NCBI RefSeq assembly: GCF_900446215.1
Contig: NZ_UAQZ01000017.1
Span: forward strand, 186,001-250,000
DNA from: Burkholderia cenocepacia
Lineage (GTDB): Bacteria; Pseudomonadota; Gammaproteobacteria; Burkholderiales; Burkholderiaceae
Length of the DNA stretch: 64,000 nucleotides
Direction: 5' to 3'
Notes under the pieces: model-generated
What the model was told of the DNA's origin: nothing
Databases searched by the model: none
What the model saw: the letters and a program-made list of their open reading frames with translations, nothing else
Made by a program: the position numbers and the translations under genes
Shown here: positions 2,441-6,446 of the stretch, in pieces
Position numbering within the stretch: the stretch's first letter is position 1
Layout of the letters: each line of letters begins with the position of its first letter

Positions 2441-2980
2441 TCAGTCGTAGCGGCGCAGAAAGGCGTCGGCGACGGCCGGCGGATTCAGCGCTTTCGCCGA
2501 CGCGTTTTCCAGCGCCTCGGCCGCATCGTCGTCGCTGATCGACACGAACAGCGTGATCGCCGCCCGGTCATCGCCCGTGCCGAACACGCCGTCGCGATCG
2601 AGCAGCCGCAATGCCTCGATCATGTCGGCGTGCAGTTGCCGGGAAAATTCGCTGAAGCGCGACGGGACGAACTGCGGGCTCAGCACTTCGTCGGCCAGCC
2701 GGCCGCAGATCGCGTTGAACGGCGAAGCCTCGGCCGCCGCGTACGCCCACTCGGCCACGCCCCACACGAACCACGGGTCGTCGTCCGCCACCGCCTGCCG
2801 CGCGCGGACCCGGCGCAGCCCTTCGACCGAATTGGCCGCCGGCACCACCGTCATCGCACCGCTGTCGGTGTACAACGCAAACGCGTAGAAATGCTCGTCC
2901 GGGTGCAACGCCCGCAGCGCCCGGAAGGTCGCCCTCGCGGCATCGGCAATATCCCGCTGGAAATCAGAAAAGTCGCTCAT
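2441..2980 (-). CDS. DUF4303 domain protein
   Basis: A soluble acidic 179-residue protein with the hallmarks of the DUF4303 family: an early FYAFALYTDSGAMTVVPAAN strand pattern, a central tryptophan-rich DDPWFVWGVAEWAY, and a C-terminal AITLFVSISDDDAAE. The function of this family is not established. The start at 2980 is supported by a GAGGA ribosome-binding site six bases upstream; an upstream in-frame start at 3100 would add 40 low-complexity residues overlapping the intergenic region. The gene converges with the FAH gene (54 bases between stop codons) and lies downstream of the Bcr/CflA exporter on the same strand, with 126 bases between them, so read-through is possible. Confidence 0.75.
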   Translation of the reverse strand: MSDFSDFQRDIADAARATFRALRALHPDEHFYAFALYTDSGAMTVVPAANSVEGLRRVRARQAVADDDPWFVWGVAEWAYAAAEASPFNAICGRLADEVLSPQFVPSRFSEFSRQLHADMIEALRLLDRDGVFGTGDDRAAITLFVSISDDDAAEALENASAKALNPPAVADAFLRRYD

Positions 2981-3106
2981 CGCATCCTCGTCCAGTCGCC
3001 TTTTGCGCTCGTCGGGACACGCGGCGCGCGGCTCGTGCGTCGTCTCCCGGCATGCGGCGGATTGTCCGTCATTCGGCCGCGCGCCGGTACCGGGGCGCAC
3101 CCGCGC

Positions 3107-4318
3107 TCACCGCCCGGCGTCCTGTCCGTCGAACACCCGCACGCACACGGCGGCCGCCAGCGCGATCGCCGCCGACAGCAGCATCATCGCGAGCGGCAGG
3201 TAGCCCGCGTTGCCGACGGTCAGCAGCGCGCCCGTCAACGACGACAGCGCGGCGCCGCCGCCGATCGTCATCGCGCCGGCCAGCCCCGACGCGCTGCCCG
3301 CCAGTTCCGGGCGCACCGACACCGCGCCCGCATGGGCGCCCGGGTTGCTCAGCCCGTTGCCGATGCCGACCAGCACGCACGGCCCGAACCATGCGAGCGC
3401 GTGCGTCGCGCCGCCGAACATCAGCGCAAGCCCGATCAGCGGCCCCACGCACGCGACGACCCGCCCGCCCAGGATCGTCGTGGCCAGCGCGTAGCGGCGC
3501 GCGCCCCGCGCGGCCAGCAAGCTGCCGCACACGAAACCGGCCGTGATCGTCCCCATGTAGACGCCGATCTCCGCCGGCGCGATGCCGAATCGCGTTTTCG
3601 CGGCAAGCGGCGCGCCGGCCAGGAACGCATAGAACGCGCCCGTCGAAAACGCCATGCACAGCGCATAGGCCCAGAAGCGGCGCGCACGGAGCAGCGCCGG
3701 ATACGCGCGAAGCTGCTGCCCGAAGCTCGACGACCGGCGCGTATGGGTTTCGACGAGATCGCGCGCGCACCAGGCGAACAGCCCGATGCCGACCCCGCCA
3801 AGCAACCAGAAGCTCGCGCGCCAGCCGACCGTCTGGTCGAGTGCGCCGCCGAGCGTCGGGCCAAGCATCGGCGCGAATGCGGCCGCCATCGCCGCATAGC
3901 CGATCCGGCTCGCCGCGCGCGCGCCACCGCCGGTGTCGCGGATCGCCGCCATCGACACCGGATAGACCGGCGTGATCGCCGCCTGCATCAGCCGGCAGCC
4001 GAGAAACACGCGGATATCGGCCGCCATCGCGCAACCGAGCGACCCGAGCGCGAATAGCGCGACGCTCGTCAGCACGATCGGCCGCCGCCCGAACCGGTCG
4101 GACAGCGGCCCCGTCACGAACTCGAGCGATGCGGCCACCGCCGCATACCCGCCGAGCGACAGCGCGACGAGCGCATAGTCGGTGTGCAGGTCGCGCACGA
4201 TCGACGGCAGCGACGGCAGGAACAGGCTCAGCGGCAAGACCGACAACGCGCACAGCAGGATCAGCGTGGCGTGCCGCGGCGACGCCGGGTCGGACGCGGT
4301 CGACAGGTTCGATGACAA
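3107..4318 (-). CDS. Bcr/CflA-type MFS drug exporter
   Basis: The 403-residue product has twelve hydrophobic segments and the major facilitator motif A in the loop after helix 2 (GPLSDRFGRRPI), plus the antiporter-like motif C in helix 5 (APMLGPTLGGALD). Order and length match Bcr/CflA proton-driven drug exporters of the inner membrane. Translation most likely begins at the TTG at 4318, because GGGAGGG lies seven bases upstream and no ATG is better placed. What is unusual is the 5' region: the mRNA would start near 4505, encode a 16-residue leader peptide, and pass a strong intrinsic terminator 45 bases before this start. That arrangement implies that expression depends on how well ribosomes translate the leader, which would suit a pump for translation inhibitors. 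The substrate is unknown. Confidence 0.88.
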   Translation of the reverse strand: MSSNLSTASDPASPRHATLILLCALSVLPLSLFLPSLPSIVRDLHTDYALVALSLGGYAAVAASLEFVTGPLSDRFGRRPIVLTSVALFALGSLGCAMAADIRVFLGCRLMQAAITPVYPVSMAAIRDTGGGARAASRIGYAAMAAAFAPMLGPTLGGALDQTVGWRASFWLLGGVGIGLFAWCARDLVETHTRRSSSFGQQLRAYPALLRARRFWAYALCMAFSTGAFYAFLAGAPLAAKTRFGIAPAEIGVYMGTITAGFVCGSLLAARGARRYALATTILGGRVVACVGPLIGLALMFGGATHALAWFGPCVLVGIGNGLSNPGAHAGAVSVRPELAGSASGLAGAMTIGGGAALSSLTGALLTVGNAGYLPLAMMLLSAAIALAAAVCVRVFDGQDAGR

Positions 4319-4362
4319 GCGGATGCCCTCCCGCGCACGGGCCGCACGGCCGTGCGCAACAC

Positions 4363-4391
4363 AAAAAAAAGCCCCCGAACGAGTCGGGGGC
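4363..4391 (-). terminator. Intrinsic terminator inside the leader of the Bcr/CflA exporter mRNA
   Basis: Read on the minus strand, an 8-bp perfect stem (GCCCCCGA with TCGGGGGC) closes a five-base loop and is followed by eight consecutive T residues. It lies after the leader-peptide stop codon and before the exporter start, so it can only act as an attenuator or as a block to transcripts entering from upstream. It does not terminate any complete gene, because the HtrA gene ends at 4547 with a promoter in between. Confidence 0.85.
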
Positions 4392-4431
4392 GCATGGGTG
4401 CCGGCGCGATCCCGCTACCGGACCCTGCGCC
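4389..4431 (-). promoter_or_regulatory. Candidate antiterminator hairpin overlapping leader codons and terminator
   Basis: On the minus strand the segment 4431-4418 can pair with 4404-4389: six base pairs (GGCGCA with TGCGCC), a one-base bulge, four pairs (GGGT with ACCC), another one-base bulge and four pairs (CCGG with CCGG), with a 13-base loop. The 5' arm lies in the last codons of the leader peptide; the 3' arm shares three bases (4391-4389) with the terminator stem. The overlap is short, so exclusion would be partial, but the hairpin is long and GC-rich. A ribosome at the leader stop codon would cover the 5' arm and free the terminator; a ribosome stalled earlier would leave the hairpin free to form. 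Confidence 0.55.
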
Positions 4432-4465
4432 TGTGGATGACTACGATGAAGCAAGCCGTTTTCAT
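4415..4465 (-). CDS. Putative leader peptide MKTACFIVVIHRRRVR
   Basis: This 16-codon open frame starts at an ATG with AGGAG nine bases upstream and ends at TAG 4417-4415. It lies about 40 bases after a good promoter and immediately before an antiterminator/terminator pair, so position and signals all match an attenuation leader. The peptide is a short hydrophobic run followed by HRRRVR, and two of its four arginine codons are AGG, which is rare in such GC-rich genomes. I do not recognise it as a known named leader peptide. Expression of the peptide is inferred, not shown. Confidence 0.65.
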   Translation of the reverse strand: MKTACFIVVIHRRRVR

Positions 4466-4512
4466 GCTGAATGGCTCCTGGATGCGTGGCGGACCGCCAG
4501 CGATATCGGACG

Positions 4513-4542
4513 ATGTTAGGCGGACGACGGCAGCCGCGTCAA
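4513..4542 (-). promoter_or_regulatory. Sigma-70 type promoter for the leader and Bcr/CflA exporter
   Basis: On the minus strand TTGACG (4542-4537) and TAACAT (4518-4513) are separated by 18 bases. It is one of the better housekeeping-type promoters in the window and sits just after the stop codon of the HtrA gene, giving the exporter its own transcript with a leader of nearly 190 bases. Confidence 0.65.
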
Positions 4543-4546
4543 CGCC

Positions 4547-6127
4547 CTAACGCGCGCGCACCGACACGAACTTCCGCGCGTTGTTGCGCTGGATCAGCAC
4601 GGCGATCACGCTGCCGCCGCTCGCTTCAAGCGTCGGTACGTCGTCCGGCGTCTCGAGCAGCGTGTCGTTGAGCTCCAGCACCACGTCGCCCGGCTGGATA
4701 CCGGCGCGCGCGGCCGGGCCATGCACCGCATCCACCATCATCCCGACCGCGAGCCCGGTCGAACGGCGCTCGTCGTCGCTCAACGCGTGCATCGTCAGGC
4801 CGAGGCGGTCGCCGTGGTCGCCTGCATCGCCCGCCCCCGAACCCGGCCCCGGCCGCGCGGCGGCCTTCGGCGCGGCCATGCCGACCGTGGCGACCGCGCT
4901 ACCCGCGTCGTCGGCGCCGGTGATCGTCAGCATCATCGGCGCACGGTTGCGGATCACGCGCAGCCGCGCCTTGCCGCCCGGTGGCAGCGCGCCGGCCAGA
5001 TCGTTCAGTTCGGCCGAGTGGCCGATCGTCTTGTCGCCCACCTTCACGATCACGTCGCCGGGTTTCAGGCCGGCCGCGGCGGCCGGCGAGCCGGGCGCGA
5101 CCCCGTTGACGAGTGCGCCCGCCGCACGCGGCAGTCCGAACGCCGCGGCCAGGCCGACGCCCACGTCCTGCACGTCGACGCCGAACGCATTGCCCGACGA
5201 CGCCTCCGCCGCGGGCGGCGGAGCCTGCTGCGCCTGCACTTGCGCCTGCTGTTGCGCACGCAACTGGGCGCGCACCTTCGTCGCGAACGCGATCGGGATG
5301 GCGAATGTCGTGCTCGCGTAGCGGTCGGCGCCCGTATAGACCTGCACCGCGATGCCGATCACGTCACCCGCGCGATTGAACACCGGGCCGCCCGAGTTGT
5401 CGGGGTTCGGTGCGATGTCGGTTTCGAAGAACGGAAACGCGCTGCCGTCCGGCAGCCGGCGCGACGTCGCGCTGACGATGCCGGCCGTGACCGTGTTGCC
5501 CGAGCCGTCCGGCGCGCCGATCGTCATCACCGGTTCGCCCGCGCGCACTTTCGACGAATCGCCGACGCGCACGAACGGCAGCTTCGTCGCGTCGACGCGC
5601 AGCACGGCCACGTCGCTTTGCGGATCGACGGCCAGTACCGTCGCCTTGAATTCGCGCCGGTCGGTGAGCCGCACCGTCACGTCGGTCGCCTCGTCGACCA
5701 CATGAGCGGACGTGAGGATCAGGCCATCGGCGCTGACGATGAAACCCGAGCCGCTGCCGGACACCGCACGCGGCGCGGTATCGGGCGCCGGTGCCTGCGG
5801 CCCCGGCGCGGACGGCGGTGCGCCATGGCGGAAGAACGCGGCGAGCGGATCGTCGGGATCGAGCATGGCAAAGGCCGGGCCGCCGGTTTGCGGGTCGGGC
5901 GTGGCGGCCATGATGGTCACGACCGCCGGGCCGTAGCGCTCGACGATCGCCGGGAAGTCGACCGGCATCGCGTAAGGCGCGGCGGGCGGCCGCGCCTTCA
6001 TCGCGGGCGGTGCGGCGGGCGGTGCGACGGTGCCGGCGATGGCGGCGGGCGGCGGCAAGATTCCGGCAAGCACGCCCCCGATCAACGCGGTGCGAAGCAC
6101 GGCGCGAGCAAGCGTCTGGCAGACCAC
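4547..6127 (-). CDS. HtrA/Deg-type periplasmic serine protease with two PDZ domains
   Basis: The product is about 526 residues: a signal peptide (hydrophobic LIGGVLAGILPPP then AIAG), a proline/alanine-rich linker, a trypsin-like domain and two PDZ domains (around 330-410 and 450-520). The catalytic triad is visible as His142 (TSAHVVD), Asp172 (SDVAVLRV) and Ser245 (DNSGGPV). HtrA proteases degrade or refold damaged envelope proteins. The residue two before the nucleophile is Asp instead of the near-universal Gly (NPDNSGG instead of NPGNSGG); that Gly normally helps build the oxyanion hole. I chose the GTG at 6127 because GGGGGAGGTG lies just upstream; an ATG at 6208 would add a poorly organised stretch before the signal peptide. 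The protein is longer and more linker-rich than typical DegP or DegQ. Family is sure, activity is not. Confidence 0.85.
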   Translation of the reverse strand: MVCQTLARAVLRTALIGGVLAGILPPPAAIAGTVAPPAAPPAMKARPPAAPYAMPVDFPAIVERYGPAVVTIMAATPDPQTGGPAFAMLDPDDPLAAFFRHGAPPSAPGPQAPAPDTAPRAVSGSGSGFIVSADGLILTSAHVVDEATDVTVRLTDRREFKATVLAVDPQSDVAVLRVDATKLPFVRVGDSSKVRAGEPVMTIGAPDGSGNTVTAGIVSATSRRLPDGSAFPFFETDIAPNPDNSGGPVFNRAGDVIGIAVQVYTGADRYASTTFAIPIAFATKVRAQLRAQQQAQVQAQQAPPPAAEASSGNAFGVDVQDVGVGLAAAFGLPRAAGALVNGVAPGSPAAAAGLKPGDVIVKVGDKTIGHSAELNDLAGALPPGGKARLRVIRNRAPMMLTITGADDAGSAVATVGMAAPKAAARPGPGSGAGDAGDHGDRLGLTMHALSDDERRSTGLAVGMMVDAVHGPAARAGIQPGDVVLELNDTLLETPDDVPTLEASGGSVIAVLIQRNNARKFVSVRAR

Positions 6128-6446
6128 GGTGCACCTCCCCCGGGCAGTCGCGACGCCACCCTGCGCGAGACGCGCAGGCGCCCGACGAGCACCGGTACAC
6201 GCCTCCATTTATAGCCCACGCGCCGGTTGGAACATACGAATCGAAACCCGTATGCCGGGAGGTGCCCGGGCGGCGGAACCGCGAGGGCGGCCGTTTCGAA
6301 CAAAGTGCGCGGTTCGTCAATCCGAATATCCACCACGCATTGGGGTGCGTGCCACGCTCACCGCCATCGTCGCAGTCTGCGGCCAATCGTCAGCCTGTTG
6401 CGCATCGCGACAGACAGCGTGCGGCACGCAAACCGCAAACGGCCGG

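Follow-up and report, generated by a model that had tools for sequence, protein, structure and literature searches.

We identified a conserved RNA leader at positions 4363..4542, minus strand, of a 64,000-nucleotide stretch of Burkholderia cenocepacia DNA (assembly GCF_900446215.1, contig NZ_UAQZ01000017.1, positions 186,001 to 250,000; hereafter the window), in front of a gene for a major facilitator superfamily (MFS) transporter. This leader is probably an ilv-type, ribosome-mediated transcription attenuator that senses Val/Ile-tRNA and controls the transporter gene. A first-pass annotation had described a promoter, a 16-codon open reading frame (ORF), a long hairpin (here P1), an intrinsic terminator and a TTG-started MFS gene, and we found all of these parts where it had placed them (Table 1). 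In the mechanism that we propose, the sensed molecule would be branched-chain aminoacyl-tRNA, mainly Val-tRNA read at GTA codons, plus Ile-tRNA. With ample charged tRNA, the ribosome would reach the leader stop codon and mask the 5' arm of P1, allowing the terminator to form. With valine or isoleucine scarce, the ribosome would halt at about codons 7-8 and P1 would close, capturing three base pairs at the terminator foot, and RNA polymerase would continue into the MFS gene. In alphaproteobacteria, this RNA family controls acetolactate synthase and, by our proposal, also the same MFS clade.

The relationship to acetolactate synthase (ilvI) leaders emerged from three models: R1, made from 32 Burkholderia leaders; R2, made from 23 alphaproteobacterial ilvI and MFS leaders; and R3, a covariance model made from 20 alphaproteobacterial ilvI leaders only (8 found by the Rfam family RF02502, Atu_C8, and 12 by R2). 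When R3 was run on the 8-Mb genome that contains the window (G000), the window leader was the sole match at E<=0.01 (E 4e-7), and in 60 sources, 27 of them leaderless, this model found 33 of 33 leaders and nothing else at E<=1. Within the window, R2 matched the leader and nothing else (1.5e-10); it also matched 22 of 22 other Burkholderia leader loci and none of four leaderless loci (two stray matches had E-values of 0.16 and 0.21). Across 398 Pseudomonadota genomes, R2 gave 47 matches in 43 genomes: 41 precede acetolactate synthase, 5 precede this MFS gene (G000, G427, G570, G589 and G595), and the weakest, in G616, precedes neither. In the other direction, R1 was run on 55 alphaproteobacterial loci, of which 30 have a leader. 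It detected seven leaders at E<=0.004 (L116, 1.5e-13; L097 ilvI, 6.7e-10; L120, 4e-6; L088 ilvI, 2e-5; L122, 2.6e-4; L132, 0.0024; L086 ilvI, 0.004), and nine further matches with E-values of 0.046-0.37 all fell at leader positions. In 299 genomes of the family, strong R1 matches were confined to Burkholderia; three weak matches outside the genus (L066-L068) were judged upon inspection to be due to chance. These large R1 and R2 genome searches score few candidates per genome and lose weak matches. By these comparisons, the window leader is homologous to ilvI leaders in sequence and structure. Because an MFS gene lies downstream, and not a gene for branched-chain amino acid biosynthesis, we read it as an ilv-type variant with another target.

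RF02502 itself exceeded its cut-off at 19 places in 15 of 299 Pseudomonadota genomes. Its members encode short ORFs (for example MKTALILVGRRVGKAV, followed by a stop codon). Fifteen of the places precede acetolactate synthase, and the other four (G427, G570, G589 and G595) precede genes for MFS proteins that are 44-54% identical to the window protein. Because all 19 precede one or the other gene, this distribution suggests that RF02502, typed by Rfam as a small RNA gene, is an ilvI attenuator. Other sub-threshold Rfam matches of the window leader (anti-hemB, asR3 and others) look like generic terminators and were discarded.

We next considered which codons the ribosome would read. Counting back from the stop codon in 33 Burkholderia leaders, valine occupies position -9 in 31, -8 in 32 and -7 in 21, and isoleucine occupies -10 in 23; V, I or L fills at least three of positions -11 to -7 in 31 leaders, and one in G058 and G059. 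The valine codon GTA makes up 61 of the 93 valine codons that lie before the last five codons of the 33 leaders, versus 5 of 176 in six window genes; since these leaders share ancestry, the p-value computed for this bias is overstated. The first-pass annotation had pointed instead to AGG as a notable rare codon (5 of 178 arginine codons in six window genes), and it is GTA that stands out. An attenuator that senses arginine through the RRRVR cluster and its AGG codons would have three to four Arg codons and the scarcity of AGG in its favor, but is very improbable, since the ribosome would meet these codons in P1's 5' arm, after the computed switch point, and related leaders in front of this gene carry one to three Arg at this place.

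The position of the Arg codons also bears on the proposal that drugs which inhibit translation halt the ribosome within the leader, so that P1 forms and a drug pump is turned on. The gene is indeed related to multidrug exporters, and the RRRVR end resembles the R-X-R macrolide-arrest motif. However, a ribosome at RRR or RVR would mask P1 and favor the terminator, and related leaders have R-M-G-R or R-V-G-K rather than R-X-R; we therefore rejected drug or macrolide arrest at this motif, since it comes after the switch point and relatives do not retain it. Because the RNA is homologous to ilvI leaders, the conserved upstream codons are Val/Ile with a strong GTA bias, and the Arg codons follow the switch point, drug sensing as claimed in the first-pass annotation is not supported and we consider it improbable. 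From these comparisons, the signal is most likely Val/Ile-tRNA rather than a drug.

To model the switch, we folded the RNA downstream of an assumed ribosome edge and took the pairing of the terminator's outermost pair as the readout. For the window leader, this pairing was 0.68-0.71 while the P site was at codons 1-3, fell to 0.36-0.54 over codons 4-7 and rose to 0.90-0.99 once codon 8 was reached. The computed switch point thus falls at codons 7-8, and the overlap-type ilvI leaders that we folded have theirs at the corresponding place. Folding covered 15 of the 33 Burkholderia leaders, 12 alphaproteobacterial MFS leaders and 14 ilvI leaders; most of these Burkholderia leaders and ten overlap-type ilvI leaders behave like the window leader. 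Overlap here refers to bases common to P1 and the terminator, which in the window are GCC (4391-4389). The 3-base overlap remarked on in the first-pass annotation is thus present in the window and variable among relatives: as read from the alignment, it is 2 in L024, L033 and L034, 1 in L013 and 0 in L031. Pairing of the leader Shine-Dalgarno (SD) sequence with the terminator tail, which appears in predicted folds, was rejected because its bases vary (GGAGTC, GGAGCA, GGAGGC). In 34 alpha- and betaproteobacterial sequences, the outer stem of P1 is paired in 91.5% of cells, versus 22-64% when slid.

Conservation within the genus was assessed by blastn of 61 Burkholderia genomes, G000 included. 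Thirty-seven genomes matched, three of them (G023, G039 and G040) at the end of the upstream protease gene only, leaving 34 of 61 with the leader. The element block aligns in 30 Burkholderia loci, and an in-frame ORF (16, 17, 19 or 24 codons) followed by a T-run is kept in 33 genomes; in the 34th, G046, the T-run is broken and the MFS gene is gone. Taken as a single sequence, the window element has weak statistics, only modestly above chance: the scan gave one promoter-like site versus 0.2 expected and one terminator-like site versus 1.7 expected, and the fold z-score is -2.66. We accept it as real because of its conservation. The same near-chance scans are what would favor a protease-gene terminator and a chance ORF, with nothing regulatory. 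This reading is already contradicted by conservation and is hardly credible: the ORF is in frame in 33 genomes, independently built models recognize the leader, three genomes (G018, G024 and G052) have leader and MFS gene without the protease, and two protease-only genomes (G039 and G040) have neither. In its occurrence, the leader goes with the MFS gene and not with the protease. The promoter stretch is also matched 5' of the leader in three loci without protease (L031, L033 and L034). Together, these results uphold the earlier proposal in that the leader is conserved and translated, is built like a transcription attenuator that depends on the ribosome, and goes with the transporter gene downstream of it.

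The MFS gene is present in 37 of the 61 genomes (E 1e-80) and the leader adjoins it in 29 of them, including the three without protease. About 1.4 kb separates the two in G011 (L040), and a contig end lies between them in G008. This linkage argues against a role in trans for the terminated RNA (as a small RNA) or for its peptide (as a small protein), whether besides or in place of one in cis, and so does the decay of the terminator in G046, which lost the MFS gene. Action in trans could nonetheless draw on the leader's own promoter and terminator, on the conserved peptide, on G034 (L073), which keeps leader and T-run ~9 kb from the MFS gene, on G017, which retains the leader before an internally deleted MFS gene, and on a precedent, the Sinorhizobium meliloti trp attenuator, whose terminated leader is reported to act in trans (PMC10117765; PMC7298713). 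We give it little chance of being right.

Leaders also precede related transporter genes outside Burkholderia. A profile search of genome contigs yielded 481 MFS loci, of which the best 80 were used, and a script sought VIL-rich ORFs before terminators; L149-L195 were searched by the script only, except that L149 and L150 were also searched with R1. We found leaders before MFS genes in Devosia (L117 and L118), Kiloniellaceae (L120), Minwuia (L121), Pelagibius (L122), Rhizobium lusitanum (L127), Mesorhizobium WSM4311 (L131, evidently the same genome as G589), L132 and L141. The script's ORF for L116 used a longer start, and we picked out the likely leader by eye. Ten of the best 80 of 481 loci have a leader, all among the 26 closest, and R3 confirms 10 of 10. 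In a quick tree of 57 MFS proteins (50 of the 80 loci plus 7 others), 17 leader-bearing rows fall in a group of 19 (support 87), and leader state changes 3 times, versus 14.8 in shuffles, with 0 of 500 as low. The leader-MFS pair is common to Burkholderia, Rhizobiales, Devosia and others. Burkholderia MFS proteins are nested among those of alphaproteobacteria (in branches with 14 rows, support 98, and 16 rows, support 97), which points to a transfer of leader plus gene: Burkholderia probably received the two together, a direction that we only infer because the tree has a midpoint root.

Several results weigh against a Val/Ile-tRNA attenuator. The best Rfam match of the window leader, RF02502, scores 24.1 bits, below the gathering cut-off of 50, and in G000 this model favored another site, C16:10542 (30.3 bits), which reads like a plain terminator; RF02502 matched none of eight Burkholderia loci at E 0.1, seven of which have the leader. 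Of the 30 leader-bearing alphaproteobacterial loci, 14 escaped R1. The valine run is broken in L116 and lacking in the leaders of G058 and G059 (L029 and L030; MKTNPNRIARPVARRRKVR and VETNLNRIARPVARRRKVR); these two loci retain P1, terminator and frame although the run is lost. In the computed equilibrium, the terminator is only partly affected (0.36-0.54 versus 0.99 for its outermost pair), with a weak effect in L005 and none in L031. Moreover, none of the 12 non-overlapping (Rhizobiales-type) leaders folded, 8 MFS and 4 ilvI, showed a switch, two of them (L108 and L141) lean the opposite way, and an alternative antiterminator for this type, sought by eye, was not found. Because the non-overlapping leaders show no switch in folding, a P1-versus-terminator switch is plausible for overlap-type leaders alone and unproven for the others. 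Support for P1 from covariation is weak as well. Of the compensatory stem changes that the first-pass annotation had named as a check, two-sided ones occur at four outer-stem pairs, in one sequence each of 34; there are none in P1 among 20 ilvI leaders, and P1 hardly varies inside Burkholderia. Finally, no leader adjoins the gene in six of the Burkholderia genomes with the MFS: G034, described above; G002 and G016, with other DNA upstream of the gene; G053 (L071), which retained the promoter and lost the leader; G023, with a truncated MFS gene; and G051, whose MFS protein is ~59% identical.

The transporter itself adds to these opposing points. Its nearest solved structures are MdfA and EmrD, multidrug/H+ antiporters, and a G-P-x-x-G-G stretch, which we take as a mark of exporters, does not vary among seven aligned members; both speak for export. 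Control by starvation speaks for uptake or for relief of pathway poisoning, and an exporter induced by starvation would be odd. TIGR00710 (Bcr/CflA efflux) is the nearest NCBIfam model, and the window protein scores 189.1 bits, under the cut-off of 200.9. Among relatives, L111 (212.8) and L116 (232.8) reach this cut-off and L121 (199.8), L110 (178.5) and L131 (176.3) miss it, with L116, L121 and L131 scored as partial proteins. From the control by branched-chain aminoacyl-tRNA, we predict a substrate tied to the Val/Ile pathway, which may be one of the branched-chain amino acids, a keto acid related to them, or a compound that interferes with this pathway. A bolder and rather unlikely extension is that a supposed multidrug pump clade, widespread in alphaproteobacteria and handed on to Burkholderia, is part of the regulon for branched-chain amino acid starvation. 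A tRNA-charging alarm might then switch the pump on when natural inhibitors of Val/Ile synthesis or tRNA charging are met, and the pump might export them or toxic intermediates.

Among known systems, the alphaproteobacterial attenuators of Caulobacter ilvBN (PMC4117421, citing Tarleton 1994) and the S. meliloti ilvIH cis element (PMC2573895, citing Vitreschak 2004) resemble the window leader. Shared features are a short ORF with tandem Val/Ile/Leu codons, a terminator, a stop codon within the outer stem GCGCAUGGG...CCCAUGCGC, and models that match reciprocally; the window leader differs in its MFS target, betaproteobacterial host, RRRVR peptide end and RF02502 score below the cut-off. In Firmicutes, T-boxes control amino acid transporters, and the sensed amino acid has been used to predict the substrate (PMC2494555). 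The window leader resembles these in that tRNA charging would control a transporter. A T-box binds tRNA directly, whereas here the sensing would fall to a translating ribosome. Leader peptides inducible by drugs precede resistance genes such as cmlA, cat and erm, and share with the window leader an ORF and hairpins before an exporter of a related family; their signal, however, would be a ribosome-bound drug, which is without support here. In the literature that we searched, which largely leaves out subscription journals, no description of this attenuator before an MFS transporter was found; a published list of short 5' untranslated region transcripts of B. cenocepacia (Table S3 of PMC5688073) may include the leader. 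Control by branched-chain aminoacyl-tRNA would give a physiological handle on transporters so far labeled only as drug exporters, since it predicts the purpose of this clade. A single attenuator family would also serve genes of two unrelated types, in two classes of proteobacteria, and leader and gene would apparently have been transferred together.

Table 1. Features of the leader region and neighboring genes (window positions)
Feature	Position	Strand	Details
Sigma-70-like promoter TTGACG-18-TAACAT	4513..4542	minus	TTGACG 4542-4537, TAACAT 4518-4513; from scan and Burkholderia alignment
Leader ribosome-binding site AGGAG	4475..4479	minus	sequence reading
Leader ORF MKTACFIVVIHRRRVR	4415..4465	minus	ATG 4465, 16 codons, TAG 4417-4415; putative control codons I7 V8 V9 I10
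Hairpin P1 (GGCGCA...UGCGCC), putative antiterminator	4389..4431	minus	begins at codon 12; holds the leader's final codons and stop
Intrinsic terminator and U-tract	4363..4391	minus	stem 4391-4371 (8 pairs), eight T 4370-4363
Further hairpin GCGCACG...CGTGCGC	4333..4357	minus	directly 5' of the MFS SD; conserved
MFS transporter gene, putative regulated gene	3107..4318	minus	SD GGGAGGG 4332-4326, TTG start 4318
HtrA/Do-type protease gene	4547-6208	minus	upstream of leader
DUF4303 gene	2441-3100		downstream, after MFS gene

Two minor observations concern relatives. L106 (G363) has a second acetolactate-synthase-like gene with its own leader, which scores below its relatives against the family models. 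The further hairpin at 4357-4333 (minus strand) carries a G-C to A-U change in L069.
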